From a virus, in the IMG/VR virus record IMGVR_UViG_3300030333_005378, positions 9,724 to 41,178 of that record: a stretch of DNA of 31,455 nt. The stretch is one strand, 5' to 3'. Below, piece by piece: positions 5,892-31,050 of this stretch. How positions within the stretch are numbered: the stretch's first letter is position 1; the number at the start of each line of letters is the position of its first letter. The notes under the pieces are model-generated. The model had not been told where the DNA came from. It saw only the letters and a program-made list of their open reading frames with translations, and ran no database searches. A program made the position numbers and the translations under genes.

Positions 5892-6026
5892 TTGGTTAGT
5901 ATTAAAAGTTACACCACTTCAAATGCAGGACAGGCTGCAAAATTGGCTGCAAAAAAACGTAAGCCAAAAATTATTAAAAAGAAAAAAACAACTGCCTCTA
6001 AAGCAGAAGAAGCAAAAGAGGAGTGA
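5892..6026 (+). CDS. 44-aa lysine-rich basic peptide (TTG start)
   Basis: A short open frame runs from TTG 5892 to TGA 6024-6026. GGGGTGATT at 5881-5888, overlapping the stop of the tail tube gene, is a strong ribosome-binding site just upstream. The peptide begins MVSIKSYTTSNAGQAAKLAA, continues with a cluster of about ten Lys/Arg (KKRKPKIIKKKK) and ends AEEAKEE. It has no Cys and no membrane segment. The highly basic core could bind DNA, RNA or an acidic virion protein. The start codon, ribosome-binding site and tight fit between neighbours support a real gene; its function is unknown. Confidence 0.55.
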   Translation: MVSIKSYTTSNAGQAAKLAAKKRKPKIIKKKKTTASKAEEAKEE

Positions 6027-6035
6027 TTTCAGTTT

Positions 6036-6065
6036 CCACCATGTATGTATGTAAATGGTCGGTGG
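6036..6065 (+). promoter_or_regulatory. hairpin in the leader of the tail chaperone gene
   Basis: CCACC at 6036-6040 can pair with GGTGG at 6061-6065 across a 20-base loop that contains a short ATGT repeat. ACCAT/ATGGT offers an overlapping alternative pairing. The GGTGG arm lies about 10 bases before the preferred ATG 6076, so the hairpin could hide the ribosome-binding region and tune chaperone synthesis. The stem is short, so this is tentative. Confidence 0.3.
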
Positions 6066-6075
6066 ATGTGAGAAA

Positions 6076-6459
6076 ATGTTTGAAGAAAAAAAAGTAGTAG
6101 GAAATAAAAATAGCCTGTTTGCGGAACAAGAAAGTAAATTGCATTATGTTAAGGTTGCACCAGATTCAGATGAATATCTGAAAATTTGGATTAAAGAGCC
6201 AACATGGTTGCAAGTTGAACAGGCGATGAATAGTGTAATGAAAGTTGATGCACAATCAAAATCTATGGATTTAGATTTAAATGCAATGTATCGCTATATG
6301 TTAGACAATTTCATTGATAAGACAGAACCCCATTTGAGTTCTGTTGATTTAATTAGACTCAAGCCCTATGTGGGCAATCAGATTAAAGATATTCTCCCAA
6401 ATCCTTTCGAGGAAATGCAGGAGGATGAAGCAAAAAACGAAGAATTAGAGATGCAGTAA
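6076..6459 (+). CDS. tail assembly chaperone, short (gpG-like) form
   Basis: This 127-aa protein is acidic and mostly helical. An in-frame ATG exists at 6055, but ATG 6076 gives the natural start (MFEEKKVVGNKN). It contains a small N-terminal β part and helices with WLQVEQAMNSVMKV and MYRYMLDNFID, ending in a Glu-rich tail before TAA 6457-6459. Its position between tail tube and tape measure, its size and the overlapping second frame match tail assembly chaperones, which coat the tape measure while the tube polymerises and are not in the finished virion. Ribosomes that do not shift frame make this form. Confidence 0.75.
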   Translation: MFEEKKVVGNKNSLFAEQESKLHYVKVAPDSDEYLKIWIKEPTWLQVEQAMNSVMKVDAQSKSMDLDLNAMYRYMLDNFIDKTEPHLSSVDLIRLKPYVGNQIKDILPNPFEEMQEDEAKNEELEMQ

Positions 6460-6683
6460 GAAAGGGAACAACAGACCCTAAAACTGCCTCTCTATTAGTC
6501 GTTTATTCGCTATCAAAGGCATTAGGTATAAGTCCTTTAGAAGTGTATGAAATGCCAGCAAGTTTAGTAACTGATTTATTAAGTATGCACTGTGAAGTTG
6601 AAAAATACAAAGCAGAAGAATTAGAAAAATCAGTAAATAAAAGTAGTAATTCAGCAAGTAGTTCTATAAATAAATTTAGGTGA
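6076..6683 (+). CDS. tail assembly chaperone, long (gpGT-like) form made by -1 frameshift
   Basis: Translation from 6076 to the slippery heptamer at 6432-6438 and then one base back gives a 202-aa product: 121 residues of the zero frame plus 81 of the -1 frame, ending TGA 6681-6683. The -1 part is uninterrupted and protein-like (KTASLLVVYSLSKALGISPL, then VYEMPASLVTDLLSM), followed by a charged Ser/Asn-rich tail. It has no plausible start of its own, so it is best explained as a fusion. The stop codon overlaps the GGTGAT ribosome-binding site of the tape measure gene. In phage lambda the T part of gpGT recruits tail tube protein; the same role is inferred here. Confidence 0.75.
6432..6438 (+). 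promoter_or_regulatory. -1 programmed frameshift slippery site A_AAA_AAC
   Basis: The heptamer is in the correct phase with the zero-frame codons GCA AAA AAC. AGGAGG at 6419-6424 lies 7 bases upstream. An internal Shine-Dalgarno-like element at about this distance stimulates -1 shifting in bacterial dnaX, so a similar aid is possible here. I did not find an obvious strong downstream stem-loop. Confidence 0.75.
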
Positions 6684-6688
6684 TATTT

Positions 6689-8614
6689 TTGTCCTATGAA
6701 GATACTAAAAAGGAAGTCAAGGAAATTGACGACGCTTTAAGTAATCTTCAAGAAACAATTTTAAATGTAAGAGATACTAATAAAGAAATGGGTAGAACTT
6801 TTGCCCAAAATGCTTCAATGTCAAAAACTTGGACCGCAGCATCAAGGATTCTTTCGGGTTCAGGTCTTTGGAAAATTCAGAATAGAGTAAGAGCCGTTAT
6901 TGATTTAATGGCAGTATATGATACAATGCAAGAAAAATCTATAGAAAATACAACCAAGCAAACGAATATTATGAATAAGTTTGCTAAGGCTCAAGGTAAA
7001 AGAATTGAACTTGATGAAAAATTAGCATTAATTAAAACTGCAGATTCTGGTATTATTGAAGCAGAATATGAAAAATTAGGTATAATAGATGCAATGGGTA
7101 AATCTACTGAACAACTATTAAATGAGGAATTTGCTTCATATGCTTTAGCCAAGAAAAAAGGCGCAACCCATGAGCAAGCACTTAAGATGCTTGAAATGGA
7201 ATTATTGCACACTAAGAAATTAGAAGAGCGTCAAGAAAAAAGAATTTTTGGAACAGAAAAAAAGAAAGAAAAATTTAGAAAAAAGCAAGAAAAGTGGTTT
7301 CAAAAAAATCAAGCAAGAATAGATTTACAAGCAAAGATAGAAGAAAGAAAGGATTTAAGAGCAGAAGCATCTCAAGAAAAATTATTAGCATTAAAAAGAG
7401 AAGCAGCAACTATGGTTGAACCAACTCTTTTAGAATTATCAAGGCATTCTCTTGATACACAAGCAGATATGTTAGCACAATGGGATAACATTCATAAACA
7501 AATTGATGATGTAACTGAACAAATATCTGATATGGATAAAGGTGCTGGAGGTTTATTTACTGATATGGTTACCTTAATGAAATCTGATGCGGGCAGTATT
7601 GGCGATAAAATATTTGGTAAAAAACAAGTAGATGAAGAAGGAAATGAAACCGGCGAAAGAAAAGGCGGTATGCTTGGATTATTAAGAGCAGCAGAAAGAA
7701 GAGAAAAATGGGAAAATTTCTCAGCAAAGATGCAAGATAATGCAGGTAAGTTTAGGGATAATATAAGAATGAAATTATTACCTAAAATATATATGTTTTT
7801 AAGAAATATGTTTATGGGATTCATATACTTTACAATATTCCTTGCAGCAGCATTTGTAGTATTTAAGTTGTTACAAACTGCTTGGAATGATTTTACAGGA
7901 AGATGGGATGAAATCTTCCCTATATTTGACGAAAAATTCGCAGCCATATCTGAGTTAATGGATGATTTATGGACTAGCGCAGAAGATTTATGGTTAGCAT
8001 TTACTACCGGAGGATTAGGAGAATTTATTAATAAATCGTTTGTCTTTTTGGGTAAACTATTACACTTGGGTATTAAACTTTTAGGTGTGATTTGGGAAGT
8101 AGCATGGCAAGTAATTAAATCATTATGGAATGGTTTCTTATCATTATTATGGAAACAACCTGATAAAATAATTAAAGGTATAATGATTGGGTTAGCAGTT
8201 TGGGGAACGTGGATGTTAGTTAAATGGTTGGGAGGTCATCTTATATCTACAATGACTGCAATTATTGGTGCAGTTCCAATGGCTATAATTGTTGCTGGTG
8301 TTGCTTTACTTGCATTATTTGTTATTGCACTACAAAAGGCAATTCCGGGTTGGTCGCAAGGTGGTGTTCATGGTGGTGGTGTTGCTATGGTTGGAGAAAA
8401 GGGTCCAGAATTAATAAACTTACCTTCAGGAACAAGAATACATTCTAATAAAAAATCAAGAGGGATGATTTCTGGACAAACAAATAATATAAACGTATCT
8501 GTTAATGGAAGAGTTGGTGCTTCTGATTCAGAAATTAGAGATATTGCTAGAAAGATTGGACAACAATTAAATAGAGAAATAAATAGAACTACAAGTTCTG
8601 CAACAAGGTTGTGA
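6689..8614 (+). CDS. tape measure protein
   Basis: This 641-aa protein sets tail length and is probably ejected during infection. A GTG at 6680 is in frame, but TTG 6689 lies 4 bases after GGTGAT (6679-6684) and gives MSYEDTKKEV. Residues 1-300 are long charged helices, probably coiled coil. Hydrophobic segments lie at about 366-397 (FIYFTIFLAAAFVVFKLL), 450-485 and 495-550. Residues about 555-585 contain GGGVAMVGEKGPELINLPSG followed by TRIHSNKKS, a very common C-terminal motif of tape measure proteins. At about 1.5 Å per residue the tail would be near 95 nm. It directly follows the chaperone, as expected. Confidence 0.9.
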   Translation: MSYEDTKKEVKEIDDALSNLQETILNVRDTNKEMGRTFAQNASMSKTWTAASRILSGSGLWKIQNRVRAVIDLMAVYDTMQEKSIENTTKQTNIMNKFAKAQGKRIELDEKLALIKTADSGIIEAEYEKLGIIDAMGKSTEQLLNEEFASYALAKKKGATHEQALKMLEMELLHTKKLEERQEKRIFGTEKKKEKFRKKQEKWFQKNQARIDLQAKIEERKDLRAEASQEKLLALKREAATMVEPTLLELSRHSLDTQADMLAQWDNIHKQIDDVTEQISDMDKGAGGLFTDMVTLMKSDAGSIGDKIFGKKQVDEEGNETGERKGGMLGLLRAAERREKWENFSAKMQDNAGKFRDNIRMKLLPKIYMFLRNMFMGFIYFTIFLAAAFVVFKLLQTAWNDFTGRWDEIFPIFDEKFAAISELMDDLWTSAEDLWLAFTTGGLGEFINKSFVFLGKLLHLGIKLLGVIWEVAWQVIKSLWNGFLSLLWKQPDKIIKGIMIGLAVWGTWMLVKWLGGHLISTMTAIIGAVPMAIIVAGVALLALFVIALQKAIPGWSQGGVHGGGVAMVGEKGPELINLPSGTRIHSNKKSRGMISGQTNNINVSVNGRVGASDSEIRDIARKIGQQLNREINRTTSSATRL

Positions 8615-26382: not shown

Positions 26383-27171
26383 TTACATCCACTCACTTAA
26401 ATTTTTCTGTTTTTCATCTATCATAAATTCTCTAACATTCCAGCCCATAGCATCATAAATTGGCTTGGCCTTTTTAACAATTGCGTTTGCATACGCACCC
26501 CAATCAGGGGTATATTTTTCATTAAACTCTTTCATCTCCTTAACAGCAATATAACTTGCTCTTCTTTCTTTTCCATTTGGTAATATGATAAATTGAGGCC
26601 CAATTATATCTGAACATTGTATGTATAAAAAGGAATCTTCAATAGGATTATCGGGGTTAATGTGTTGATTGTAATAACATACACCCGCCATTCCACCTGA
26701 AATAGATTTGTAATCTTCTATTTTACGTCTAACTCTCTTTTGTTTAACAATATCAGATAATTCATATCTTCCATGTTTTGCATCATTATAAATTCCTTTA
26801 CAAAACATATTTATTTCTTCTAGCGTTTCTTCTGAAACCCACCGTTGTAATAATTCTTTTTGAAAATCACGACAAATTTTACTTTCGCTTCTTCTCTTCA
26901 TAGAATATCCCGTTACAACAAATTCGGGATTATCTAAATAATAACCATCTTTCCAAGATATAAATCCTGCATTTCTATTTTTCTTAATCCCAACACCTAA
27001 TGTTTTATAGAACTTTTCAAATTCTAATTGAACAGGGTGATTATCTAATTCTAAAACATTAGGAAACGCTTCTTGCACCTTAGCATTGATTTCTTTACAA
27101 ATTACTTGTGCCTTATCTACATTTTCAATAGGAATGTAGACTGAATCTGTGTGTGCATAAACTACTTTCAT
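26383..27171 (-). CDS. family B DNA polymerase, C-terminal part (motif C to PIP box)
   Basis: This 262-aa protein carries the rest of the palm and the thumb of a PolB whose other part is at 27419-29065. It starts with motif C itself: MKVVYAHTDSVYI, with H7 in place of the first Asp of the usual Y-x-D-T-D and D9 kept. GIKKNRNAGF at about 61-70 corresponds to the K-K-x-Y motif. GYSMKRRSESKICRDFQ at about 88-104 is the thumb entry. The last residues, QKNLSEWM, are a PCNA-interacting (PIP) box at the usual C-terminal place. The frame has a stop (TGA) two codons before ATG 27171, so it is not a truncated reading of a longer gene. Confidence 0.85.
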   Translation of the reverse strand: MKVVYAHTDSVYIPIENVDKAQVICKEINAKVQEAFPNVLELDNHPVQLEFEKFYKTLGVGIKKNRNAGFISWKDGYYLDNPEFVVTGYSMKRRSESKICRDFQKELLQRWVSEETLEEINMFCKGIYNDAKHGRYELSDIVKQKRVRRKIEDYKSISGGMAGVCYYNQHINPDNPIEDSFLYIQCSDIIGPQFIILPNGKERRASYIAVKEMKEFNEKYTPDWGAYANAIVKKAKPIYDAMGWNVREFMIDEKQKNLSEWM

Positions 27172-27419
27172 TCTTCATCACCCATCCATTCCCATATAGT
27201 TCTACTTTTTGAAGTTGTATATTTTTGCTTTATTCCGATTTTAGGATTAGCATATAGTAAATTAGATAATCTTTGGGAATTAACAGTTAAATGTGTTGTG
27301 CCATAACCATGATTATTTGGGTAATTATTTAGAATATCCATTAAATCACTTGTTGTGAATTCACCAAGACGTTCTGCTTCTTTATTAATTCTATTTTTAA
27401 GAATTTTATGTCTAGGCAT
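27168..27419 (-). CDS. 83-aa winged-helix protein between the two PolB genes
   Basis: ATG 27419 overlaps the N-terminal PolB stop by one base (TAATG), and its TGA overlaps the C-terminal PolB start by four (ATGA). The protein begins with a basic helix (MPRHKILKNRINKEAERLGE). A helix-turn-helix pattern follows (FTTSDLMDILNN and NSQRLSNLLYANP), then a likely wing (KYTTSKSRTIWEW). It shows no intein, maturase or homing endonuclease motif. It may be a DNA-binding accessory subunit of the polymerase, a transcription regulator, or a gene that happened to land in the split. The coupled overlaps on both sides suggest equal expression with the polymerase parts. Confidence 0.75.
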   Translation of the reverse strand: MPRHKILKNRINKEAERLGEFTTSDLMDILNNYPNNHGYGTTHLTVNSQRLSNLLYANPKIGIKQKYTTSKSRTIWEWMGDEE

Positions 27420-29065
27420 TATTCCATCTCCTGTGCCGTAAATGCCGCTAATCTTGTTGCTTCTCTTGCACTTGCAGTAATTGAAGCCGCTAATGTAACA
27501 TCAGCCCAACCAAACCCTTGATAGGCCAATACACCATAAAATGACGCCATTAATCTTTTAACAGCCAATTGATTATTATCCCAATTAAGTCTTTCTGCAT
27601 CACTTGTTGCTTCTTTCTTTCTACGCTTATATTCGTCACGTAAAGTTTTCAATTCTAATACTGAACGAGGTAAAAGTCCTAATTCATCTGTTTTGAAATA
27701 CACCCATTTCTCTTCAGTTACAGGACTTAAATCTCTTGGTGTCATAATATTTACCTTAAATTCAGTTGGTATTGGACTACGAGTTTCCCATGAAATGTTT
27801 CTTGCAATCATCATTGATGGGTATAGACCTGCGAAATCGAATGCCGCTACATTTTGATATAATCCTTGAGTCCCATATTTCTTAGGTTCATAGATTAGTG
27901 CGCCATCGTATTCTTCGCGCATTTTAGATTTATCACCTGTTGGTGCTTTCCACCATGCATTACGCATAAAATAAATACTACCCATATTTGACGCATAAAA
28001 GCAAGCATCAAATGGTGCGACTAGTAATCTTTGTAATGCTAATACACCTTCAGATAAAGCCATTTCTTCATCTAAACGCTTAAGTAATTCACTATCTTTA
28101 AGAGCATAAGTAAGATAATTTTCTGTATCTTCTAACCACCCTCTTCTAAAAAATTCATTCTTATCGGGAAACTTTTCTGATACTAATTTCTTATCACCCA
28201 ATACTAATTCTGATACATAGTCAAGTGCCAATGATGGTAATGTTCCACGTTGCGAATCATTCCATTGTCGCTCAAAAGCAAGGTCTAAGTTCAATGTAAT
28301 TCTTCCGCGTATAGGTTGAGAAACCGGAGAATACTTATCAACATAATCTGAAACCTTTCCTCCTTCAACACCTTTCACATCATTATACGGTGAAAGTAGT
28401 CTTGGGTCAATGTCATTATACGCAAGTCTATGAATCAACTTTGGCATATCTGCAAAATTACCAAACCATGTAATGAGCATATCGGGGTCTTGTTCTCGCA
28501 TATCATTAACATATGCTTCAAGCATTTCTTTTTCACTATCATAAGCATCCCCCATGTGAGGATGTATTCCTTTAGGTAGCCAATAATAAATTGTATATTT
28601 GTCTGTATAGTTATCGTATAGAGATATAGCCGTAATCGCATCACCATGTATAGGGTCATTATTCACCCATTCCATATCCCAATACCACTTACGCATATTG
28701 TATTCCTTTATTTCTTCTAAGTTATCAACACAATAACGGTTGATAAACGGAACATCACCCTCATACGTCTTAGGCCACATCTTACGCGCATACTTAATAT
28801 CATCAGGTTTGAGAACTTTTACCTTCTTCAACTTCTTCTTCTGAAGATTATACCATTCACCTTCTTCATAACGGAAAGGATATTCTAATTTAATACGCTT
28901 CCCATTGACTGATACCGAGGTGGTATAGGCTTCCGGCTCATCCTCTAAAGCATAGATATAGAAATATGGGTCGAAATCTGTAATCGTAGATTCTTGTCTA
29001 TTCCCATCTTCATCACGCCATCTTAGATTTATAGCACGATTTGCATCTGTATAACATATAATCAT
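27419..29065 (-). CDS. family B DNA polymerase, N-terminal part (exonuclease, motifs A and B)
   Basis: This is a 548-aa protein; ATG 29065 is chosen over GTG 29074, which is part of the ribosome-binding site. The N-terminal domain has the FDPYFYI strand. The 3'-5' exonuclease is intact: Exo I D130/E132 (WDMEW), Exo II D206 (NFADMP), Exo III Y320/D324 (YALKD). Motif A is AFDFAGLYPSMM with D410 kept and Gly in place of the Ser before LYPS. Motif B is KRLMASFYG with K503 and Y510 kept but Ala507 where Asn is usual. The protein stops at EATRLAAFTAQEME, just where motif C should follow. The two products (548 + 262 aa) add up to a normal archaeal PolB. Confidence 0.9.
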   Translation of the reverse strand: MIICYTDANRAINLRWRDEDGNRQESTITDFDPYFYIYALEDEPEAYTTSVSVNGKRIKLEYPFRYEEGEWYNLQKKKLKKVKVLKPDDIKYARKMWPKTYEGDVPFINRYCVDNLEEIKEYNMRKWYWDMEWVNNDPIHGDAITAISLYDNYTDKYTIYYWLPKGIHPHMGDAYDSEKEMLEAYVNDMREQDPDMLITWFGNFADMPKLIHRLAYNDIDPRLLSPYNDVKGVEGGKVSDYVDKYSPVSQPIRGRITLNLDLAFERQWNDSQRGTLPSLALDYVSELVLGDKKLVSEKFPDKNEFFRRGWLEDTENYLTYALKDSELLKRLDEEMALSEGVLALQRLLVAPFDACFYASNMGSIYFMRNAWWKAPTGDKSKMREEYDGALIYEPKKYGTQGLYQNVAAFDFAGLYPSMMIARNISWETRSPIPTEFKVNIMTPRDLSPVTEEKWVYFKTDELGLLPRSVLELKTLRDEYKRRKKEATSDAERLNWDNNQLAVKRLMASFYGVLAYQGFGWADVTLAASITASAREATRLAAFTAQEME

Positions 29066-29070
29066 ATTAA

Positions 29071-29316
29071 TCACTCTAATGGGTCTTTTATATTAATATC
29101 ACCAAGAACCCAACGAAGTGCTTGAACAACACCTTGAAGGGCTTTAAAATTTCTAACGTGATATACTTTATCTAATTTTCTTATTGCAGAATGAGCCTCA
29201 GTTTCATGAAAATTCATTTTTCTTTCGGCTCTATCTAACATATCTTCAATTTCACCCCAACTTCTATCGTAGGTAAAATGTTCACTATCTTGATGGTCAC
29301 TTAATTCTTTCGCCAT
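29071..29316 (-). CDS. small charged helical protein
   Basis: This is an 81-aa protein. ATG 29316 follows GGGTGA; an upstream TTG at 29328 is part of that region. It begins MAKELSDHQDSEHF and then forms charged helices (WGEIEDMLDRAERKMN; LQGVVQALRWVLGD). There are no Cys residues or membrane segments. It overlaps the zinc-ribbon frame upstream by 16 bases, and its TGA lies 5 bases before the PolB ATG, within the polymerase ribosome-binding site. Its place between PCNA and PolB hints at a replication accessory role, but no family is recognised. Confidence 0.65.
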   Translation of the reverse strand: MAKELSDHQDSEHFTYDRSWGEIEDMLDRAERKMNFHETEAHSAIRKLDKVYHVRNFKALQGVVQALRWVLGDINIKDPLE

Positions 29317-29411: not shown

Positions 29412-30194
29412 TTAAACCACCACATAAGGTGCGCGAGCAATTGTCACGTTAGGCATAGTAAATACAACTACGCTATCGTCATTAAAATGAATAGATAATC
29501 CACTTCCACCATCAACACTTTTATGAATAGGTCCAGTAAAATCTACAATTGCTTCTCCCATAGTTAATATACCATCTTCTTCAGTCCAATAAGTAGCAAA
29601 CATTTCATTATTATGATTTGAGGTAATTGTTACCCCGTTATTTGCAACACATAATTTATACACACCATGACCCACATTTTCAGTAGATTTCATTGCTGAA
29701 ATAAAATCATCTGCTTGCACCAAAATCTGACTAGTTAATTGAGTTTTACCCCAAGTTAACGGTTCTAATTCCCATCCCCCAAAAAACGCAACATCTTTAG
29801 ATTTAAAAAATGAATTTAATGCCGCTTCATTTGGGTGGACAATTGCAGAAGGAAATTGCGCCGACTTATTATTTGCTGTCATGCAACAATCCCCTTCTGT
29901 AATTGATACCGTTACGTCACCACTAAATGTTTTGAGATACTTTTGGAACTTTGCTATTTCTACTACATATTCCTCTTCTTCTTCAATAATAGAAGGCAAA
30001 TAATAACTTACAAAGGTTTGAGGATTAGCATTAATAAAATAATATCCTGTTCTAAACCCCTCTCCTGTTGCAACAACCTTTACATATTCTCCTAAAGAAT
30101 CATTTGTTAAACCTGTTGCACCAAGCCATTTACCTTTCATAGAAACAATATCTAATATTTTTTGAAGATGCTTACTATCATAACAAAATTGCAT
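29412..30194 (-). CDS. PCNA-like sliding clamp
   Basis: This is a 260-aa protein. ATG 30194 follows GAGGTGAG by 5 bases and is preferred over an in-frame codon at 30233 inside the RadA-like gene. Length matches archaeal PCNA (about 245-265 aa). The pattern fits the two-domain clamp: a start with MQFCYDSKHLQKILDIVS, strands and helix repeated around residue 150 (SQILVQADDFISAMKST), then VTITSNHNNEMFATYW, and a final strand pair GLSIHFNDDSVVVFTMPN. The clamp should tether PolB, whose C-terminal part ends in a PIP box. No clamp loader gene is visible in the window, so the host RFC may load it or the gene lies elsewhere. Confidence 0.8.
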   Translation of the reverse strand: MQFCYDSKHLQKILDIVSMKGKWLGATGLTNDSLGEYVKVVATGEGFRTGYYFINANPQTFVSYYLPSIIEEEEEYVVEIAKFQKYLKTFSGDVTVSITEGDCCMTANNKSAQFPSAIVHPNEAALNSFFKSKDVAFFGGWELEPLTWGKTQLTSQILVQADDFISAMKSTENVGHGVYKLCVANNGVTITSNHNNEMFATYWTEEDGILTMGEAIVDFTGPIHKSVDGGSGLSIHFNDDSVVVFTMPNVTIARAPYVVV

Positions 30195-30204
30195 TTTTCT
30201 CACC

Positions 30205-31050
30205 TCAAAGTGTGCCTTCTTGAAGTCCTTCAATAGAATTCCAAGTTACTTTACCATTATCAATGGTTAAGAAATCAAATTCCTTATTAACCATTTCTGG
30301 ATTTCTTTTACTATCCTGAACTCTAGCCGTATAAACCGACTTCTTACCAATGTCTTTTCTTGAAATTTCAATAACTTCATTCATCTTATCCATTGTTGTC
30401 GAACGTAGATTAGGAACCTTTCCTGTTGGTGTTGGATTATTAATTCCTTCATATACTTCCTTTACATGAGTAATAAAAAATCTATCACAGTCTAAACCAT
30501 CTGTAATTTTTTCCATTAAATCCTCATAAACCTTATTTCTATTACCCCATAATACGGGTAAAAACTTGGCTTGGGTGCTACGTTTATCTTCAGTCATAAC
30601 CAAAAAGCAAAGTCTTAGCCATCTATCAACACCATCAAAAATAAATTTTACGTGTTGCCCTTCTTCAATTCTATCCTTAGCAATTGCGACAAAGGCTTCT
30701 GCTAATTCAATTGTTTTATCTAAATCAGGATAACCTTCCTCATCTCTAACAATAGGATTCAAAATTTCAATCGTTGAATCTGAATCCCAATTTGTTCTCC
30801 ATGTAGGTTCGCTACCATTATCAAAATCTAAAACCATAAGAATAGTTCCATTTTCAATTTCTTCTTTAGTTCGAGAATCAAGGGCTACACCACTTTTTCC
30901 GGTTTTTGCTTCCCCATAAATTAGGGTGCAAAGATTTGCTCGGTGTCTGCTTTGTAACTTTTCAATTCTATTCTTTACTTCGTTTTTTGCTAATTCAAGA
31001 CTACTTTCTTTCTTTACTGCTTCGCCTGTTGCTACACTATTCCAACTCAT
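30205..31050 (-). CDS. RecA/RadA-like ATPase (Sak4-type)
   Basis: This is a 281-aa protein. ATG 31050 follows GGTGA; the upstream GTG 31059 is part of that site. The Walker A is GEAKTGKSG at 46-54 (K52, S53) and the Walker B is KFIFDGVDR at about 135-143 (D139). A helix then leads to DRFFITHVKEVY, matching the β-strand with polar residue found in RecA-type cores. There is no N-terminal HhH domain as in full RadA, and the size fits phage Sak4-like single-strand annealing/recombination ATPases. It may load on single-stranded DNA to support recombination-dependent replication. It is the second gene of the operon. Confidence 0.7.
   Translation of the reverse strand: MSWNSVATGEAVKKESSLELAKNEVKNRIEKLQSRHRANLCTLIYGEAKTGKSGVALDSRTKEEIENGTILMVLDFDNGSEPTWRTNWDSDSTIEILNPIVRDEEGYPDLDKTIELAEAFVAIAKDRIEEGQHVKFIFDGVDRWLRLCFLVMTEDKRSTQAKFLPVLWGNRNKVYEDLMEKITDGLDCDRFFITHVKEVYEGINNPTPTGKVPNLRSTTMDKMNEVIEISRKDIGKKSVYTARVQDSKRNPEMVNKEFDFLTIDNGKVTWNSIEGLQEGTL

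Follow-up and report, generated by a model that had tools for sequence, protein, structure and literature searches.

A predicted dnaX-like frameshift signal in the tail chaperone gene of a magrovirus-like archaeal virus

Phage lambda encodes a two-product tail assembly chaperone, gpG/gpGT, directly upstream of its tape measure gene, and phage Mu employs a -2 frameshift in its tail chaperone gene (PMC5009743). Among archaeal viruses, -1 frameshifting is reported in the tail chaperones of HVTV-1, HCTV-1, HCTV-2 and HCTV-5, and a +1 frameshift in the tail chaperone gene of Halorubrum sodomense tailed virus 2, HSTV-2 (PMC5009743; PMC8211752). HCTV-2 is a member of Saparoviridae and HCTV-1, HCTV-5 and HVTV-1 are members of Druskaviridae, all of them being Haloarcula viruses.

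Only a handful of cases of archaeal frameshifting are on record (PMC8211752; PMC5009743). The fucA1 gene of S. solfataricus shifts by -1 at A_AAA_AAT, at about 10% in vitro; the site has rare codons and a putative stem-loop at its flanks, and no SD-like element is mentioned in the available part of its account (PMC8211752). The same archaeal review refers to SD-like stimulators only generally, for prokaryotes (PMC8211752). In the bacterial dnaX gene of E. coli, an upstream SD-like sequence, an A_AAA_AAN heptamer and a downstream stem-loop are combined (PMC5600365; PMC5009743). No report of SD-stimulated frameshifting in Archaea was found in the accessible parts of the open-access literature, where absence is no proof.

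Here we describe a locus of an archaeal tailed virus which, judged from sequence comparison, very probably carries a programmed -1 frameshift signal that yields two tail assembly chaperones from one mRNA. The window, that is the whole stretch of DNA analysed, comprises 31,455 nucleotides of a 63,356-base virus record (IMGVR_UViG_3300030333_005378).

The chaperone locus and its virus

The features of the locus, in window coordinates, are as follows.

6055-6459, plus strand: gpG-like tail assembly chaperone G, zero frame (PHROG phrog_25860, E 1.4e-7; tblastn to HCTV-2, E 5e-4); the true start may be ATG 6076 instead of 6055
6419-6424, plus strand: AGGAGG, SD-like putative stimulator (synonymous-codon tests, anti-SD energy tests, spacing)
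6426-6428, plus strand: TGA shutting the -1 frame 5' of the shift site (sequence)
6432-6438, plus strand: slippery heptamer A_AAA_AAC, in phase (sequence; in-phase heptamer in the -1-frame relatives)
6438-6683, plus strand: T domain, -1 frame, 81 codons and TGA (alignment of relatives; PHROG phrog_9001)
6446-6494, plus strand: downstream stem-loop (fold z, covariation); outer stem 6446-6457 with 6483-6494, bulges at 6452 and 6488; inner stem 6463-6466 with 6476-6479
6457-6459, plus strand: TAA, zero-frame stop and end of G (sequence)
6679-6684, plus strand: GGTGAT, ribosome-binding site that serves the tape measure gene and shares bases with the T stop codon (sequence)
6689-8614, plus strand: tape measure protein (PHROG phrog_991, E 1e-10), probable start TTG 6689

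PHROG and Pfam matches give the gene order tail tube, G/T, tape measure. Both the position of the G homologue between tail tube and tape measure genes and the conserved second frame that overlaps the end of G at an in-phase slippery site place the locus with chaperones of the lambda G/GT type. Phrog_9001, a tail assembly chaperone family, is matched by 13 of the 16 members of the T alignment (best E 2.7e-11). A lysine-rich open reading frame of 43 amino acids (5895-6026, plus strand), lying between the tail tube gene and G, has no Pfam or PHROG match.

By its gene content the virus is archaeal. It carries a TFIIB-type transcription factor (TFB), a clamp loader resembling the RFC small subunit (RFC-S) and an ATP-dependent DNA ligase. 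Among 50,697 phage records, the only matches of its major capsid protein are to viruses of haloarchaea, Methanomassiliicoccales and Methanofastidiosa, and its tail tube protein and G match only haloviruses. The B-family DNA polymerase comes as two minus-strand genes (26383-27171 and 27419-29074), one each for its N- and C-terminal parts, and an open reading frame of 83 amino acids lies between them. A group I, GroEL-like chaperonin lies outside the window in the same virus (L318:7868-9388, minus strand); its assignment as a thermosome was rejected, phmmer indicating a GroEL-like protein.

TFB, RFC-S, PolB-NTD/CTD and GroEL all appear in the ICTV profile of Aoguangviridae, a family that infects marine archaea and is related to the viruses of Poseidoniales (PMC10768690). 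With TFB, RFC-S, split PolB, GroEL and an archaeal-virus capsid protein, the magrovirus/Aoguangviridae-type set is present here; for PCNA, which is also in that profile, the candidate open reading frame 29412-30233 has no Pfam match. Formal family rank aside, the genes thus point to a magrovirus-like virus whose host is probably a member of Poseidoniales. The host assignment draws on gene content, as a search of host genomes returned only a Maricaulis MAG contig with a virus-like locus and one weak match. This contig (L210, NZMJ01000011.1, bin Maricaulis sp. MAG) is a member of the viral clade in a bacterial genome bin, probably through a binning error.

The slippery heptamer and its flanking elements

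An earlier note on this DNA, made from the letters alone, had proposed a programmed -1 frameshift in the tail chaperone of an archaeal virus, and its description of the locus agrees with ours throughout. The heptamer is in phase with the codons GCA AAA AAC of open reading frame 6055-6459. The -1 frame opens at 6429, immediately 3' of TGA 6426-6428. After the slip it is read from CGA 6438 through 81 sense codons to TGA 6681-6683, inside GGTGAT; the note had given the 81 codons and the overlap with the tape measure ribosome-binding site. It had also denied this frame a start of its own, and the first candidates, GTG 6543 and ATG 6552, indeed lie deep within the conserved T domain. AGGAGG, which the note took for an SD-like stimulator, precedes the heptamer by 7 nt.

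Relatives were collected from IMG/VR by searches for G or T with a single protein, with alignments and with a DNA pattern, which brought the set to 309 loci, 251 of which carry G; 137 distinct junctions were left once identical ones were dropped. The gene family matched 331 viral contig stretches. The tape measure protein was rejected as search bait, having retrieved mostly unrelated tape measure proteins via a short C-terminal motif. T is in the -1 frame at 125 of the distinct junctions and in the +1/-2 frame at 12, and at none of the 137 is it fused in frame or lost.

Synonymous codon choice within the SD-like element is strongly constrained. The codon three upstream of the first heptamer codon specifies Glu or Gly, rarely another residue: Glu is GAG in 76 rows and GAA in one, and Gly is GGG in 53 of 53, against overall shares in the same viruses of 16% (GAG among Glu codons) and 11% (GGG among Gly codons). 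The Gln just before this position is CAG in 76 rows, against a usage of 15%. An argument of this kind has also been put forward for bacterial prfB (PMC5009743). Pairing was computed with AUCACCUCCU, the assumed 3' end of the host 16S rRNA, an assumption supported by the sharp peak of SD-ATG distances at start codons of the same viruses (modal 7 nt, 135 of 250 genes). Across 42 divergent representatives, less than 80% identical to one another, the mean pairing energy is -11.0 kcal/mol, while synonymous recodings reach -6.4 kcal/mol; the comparison with recodings is significant in the window (q=0.017) and at q<0.05 in 29 of the 42. Pairing of -7 kcal/mol or lower is found in 98% of representatives but only 2% of control windows of the same gene. 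With the host 16S tail taken as above, the locus has an upstream SD-like element selected for anti-SD pairing, as in the dnaX type.

Could the G-rich motif be kept only for the amino acids Gln-Gly/Glu-Asp-Glu, with no stimulator at all? Asp and Glu residues do follow it in nearly all rows. We nevertheless regard this as unlikely, given that relatives alternate between Gly and Glu at this residue and yet have G as the third base in 129 of the 130 codons concerned, and that anti-SD pairing is lost upon synonymous recoding. The spacing is also nearly fixed: in the window and in 126 of 134 cases, the zero-frame P-site codon follows the final G of the element at a distance of 8 nt, one more than is modal at initiation. 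Read mechanically, a -1 slip would therefore move the P-site codon to initiation spacing.

In addition to the elements named in the earlier note, a covarying stem-loop begins 7 nt downstream of the heptamer. The 60 nt following the heptamer have a fold z of -3.3 in the window and a mean z of -3.1 in the 42 representatives, 74% of which are below -2 (dinucleotide shuffles); z stays about 0 over the 80 nt that lead up to the heptamer, as it does in most windows lying farther 3'. When compared with synonymous recodings of the T frame, the hairpin has a mean z of -2.75 and a control region 0.10. No single consensus structure emerged when RNAalifold was run on the ungapped alignment of junctions, because the register of the stem varies, and the hairpin was assessed by folding each sequence, arm swapping and pair counting. 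The 5' and 3' arms of one sequence pair better with each other than with arms swapped in from other sequences (z -10.7, equalled by none of 20,000 permutations). The covariation score on the window structure 6446-6457/6483-6494 is 0.313, compared with 0.218 in shuffles that ignore kinship, and 0.12-0.16 when the structure is slid by 1-3 columns. A convincing stem is missing in a few divergent lineages (L002, L067, L123, L204); together with the RNAalifold result, this makes the hairpin widespread rather than universal. The downstream stem-loop of the dnaX type is thus present, being absent or unclear in a few divergent lineages.

An in-phase X_XXY_YYZ heptamer, the remaining dnaX-type element, is present in all 125 relatives with T in the -1 frame; in none of them is it lost while T stays in that frame. 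A_AAA_AAC accounts for 82, A_AAA_AAG for 12, A_AAA_AAA for 10 and A_AAA_AAT for one; G_GGA_AAC is found in 10, G_GGA_AAA in 6 and one more (where an overlapping T_TTG_GGA was listed first), G_GGA_AAT in one and T_TTA_AAA in 2. The letters of the heptamer thus vary while its capacity for tandem slippage is kept, which argues for slippage of the ribosome and against that of the polymerase. In the latter case a polymerase stuttering on the A-run would add a base, and the T frame would be read from edited mRNA; the run of six A in the window and of seven in many relatives would suit it. This is very unlikely, as some 20 distinct relatives retain this arrangement on G_GGA_AAN or T_TTA_AAA, short runs that would not be expected to cause polymerase slippage, and as the SD-like element and the 3' hairpin, at spacings relevant to the ribosome, would have no purpose.

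T might also be a separate protein whose internal initiation is driven by AGGAGG, the -1-frame codon AAA standing at the initiation spacing of 7 nt. Some ATG, GTG or TTG is present near the junction in 63 of the 125 -1-frame relatives. In the other 62, none occurs in the T frame between its opening and the 15th codon after the slip; this also holds for 20 of 40 divergent representatives, among them the window. The codon at initiation spacing itself is AAA, GGG or TTT, never a start. Separate initiation, which also leaves heptamer and hairpin unexplained, is therefore very unlikely. Judged by these relatives, the two conditions under which the earlier note would have been refuted, loss of the heptamer with both frames conserved and a start codon for a second protein, both turn out in its favour. 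Chance overlap of frames or an assembly error, with no recoding, has a practically negligible probability: one strict in-phase heptamer (Y=A/T) in the nine-codon shift zone of the window would arise by chance in about 5% of cases, but its presence in 125 of 125 relatives is far beyond chance, and all 137 distinct junctions, from many metagenomes, conserve the layout with an alignable T.

Comparison of the relatives thus establishes the elements of the signal, their conservation and the coding of both frames. That slippage occurs, how efficient it is and what role T plays are inferred. In the proposed mechanism, most ribosomes would stop at TAA 6457-6459 and release G. A minority, holding Lys-tRNA on AAA in the P site and Asn-tRNA on AAC in the A site, would slip back by one base onto AAA AAA and read CGA and the following codons, resulting in a G-T fusion; the T domain would be translated only after such a slip. 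Pairing of AGGAGG with the 3' end of 16S rRNA probably raises the rate of slippage, and so, probably, does the hairpin, which would impede translocation. By analogy with lambda, G and G-T would coat the tape measure protein and T would bring in subunits of the tail tube at the proper ratio.

Relatives with T in the +1/-2 frame

In twelve relatives (L081, L137, L139, L187, L194, L196, L201, L216, L218, L219, L223 and L293) T lies in the +1/-2 frame. All twelve junctions read GAA AAA AAG followed by GAT or GAC, i.e. AA_AAA_AAG_G, and both the SD-like element and the hairpin are kept. The A-site codon is AAG in 12 of 12 of these rows as opposed to 12 of 125 -1-frame rows (raw counts, phylogeny ignored). 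On a tree of G+T DNA from which the trait columns were removed, 4 frame changes are needed and the starred branches force at least 3; a single clade of +1/-2 junctions is rejected (AU p 0.0009). Recombination could contribute to these apparent repeated switches. Between L081 and its -1-frame relative L234, upstream identity is 95%, and the difference is one base lost just after the A-run.

The switch of frame suggests -2 slippage in these relatives. Re-pairing of both Lys-tRNAs two bases back needs AAG or AAA, and the observed AAG fits such slippage, as in phage Mu. Since +1 slippage reaches the same T frame, it may operate instead; the distance of the SD-like element exceeds what is optimal for initiation, which should pull the ribosome back, not forward. 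Mu (-2) and HSTV-2 (+1) concern the same gene function with another direction of shift, but in the present family, with -2 slippage taken as the reading of the twelve, the direction would have switched between close relatives at an otherwise identical cassette.

Comparison with described systems

The earlier note had expected a well-defined recoding case in an archaeal system where few are known. Few are indeed on record, but the chaperone cases of HVTV-1, HCTV-1, HCTV-2 and HCTV-5 had already been published and the G of HCTV-2 is homologous to that of the window (29% identity, tblastn E 5e-4, same gene order), so the basic phenomenon is not new. The HCTV-2 homologue is annotated as a joined frameshift CDS and has A_AAA_AAC, with no SD-like run upstream of this heptamer. 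Both the haloviruses and the present virus are archaeal tailed viruses, the latter belonging to a marine clade. Unlike the window, HCTV-1, HCTV-2 and HVTV-1 have no significant downstream hairpin (z -0.6, 0.2 and -0.3). SD-like runs are present about 10 nt 5' of the slippery sites in HVTV-1 and HCTV-5 (GGAGG; L315, L316) and in HCTV-1 (AGGGGAG; L314), and none of these three is significant against the G+C-rich background of its own genes.

The likeness to dnaX, which the earlier note had drawn from the position of AGGAGG alone, is closer than it could know, owing to the conserved downstream stem-loop. The two differ in gene and function and in the heptamer (A_AAA_AAG in dnaX, A_AAA_AAC in the window); the dnaX ribosome is bacterial, and the SD-heptamer gap of dnaX is about 10 nt, compared with 7 nt here. 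Its shifted frame ends at once, whereas that of the window adds T. The lambda gpG/gpGT site is G_GGA_AAG, and we know of no SD-plus-hairpin cassette there. FucA1 differs from the present locus as a cellular gene of Crenarchaeota.

For Archaea, a complete cassette of the dnaX type seems to be undescribed so far. What is new in the sequences compared here is the full three-part signal, its strong conservation in marine archaeal viruses and the apparent repeated change of shift direction. With some reserve we favour the broader view that a complete archaeal dnaX-like cassette is carried by a major clade of marine viruses and that -1 and -2 shifting were switched repeatedly by AAC to AAG changes in the A site plus a one-base indel, the stimulators remaining unchanged. 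If this is true, elongating ribosomes of Archaea, like those of bacteria, would use their anti-SD to scan mRNA, and this would support a property common to both lineages. The 331 stretches of the family offer natural variants in heptamer, SD strength, hairpin and two shift directions, through which sequence analysis and reporters could test the rules of frameshifting in Archaea. In the annotation of Poseidoniales viruses, G and T are to be joined.

A GGTGA-type motif precedes the next gene in relatives, too. Directly 3' of the T stop in L067, L068, L070 and L073, the following gene carries GGTGATTAAATTTCA or GGTGATTAGATTTCA and lacks an ATG, GTG or TTG where the usual spacing would place it; it may start with ATT.
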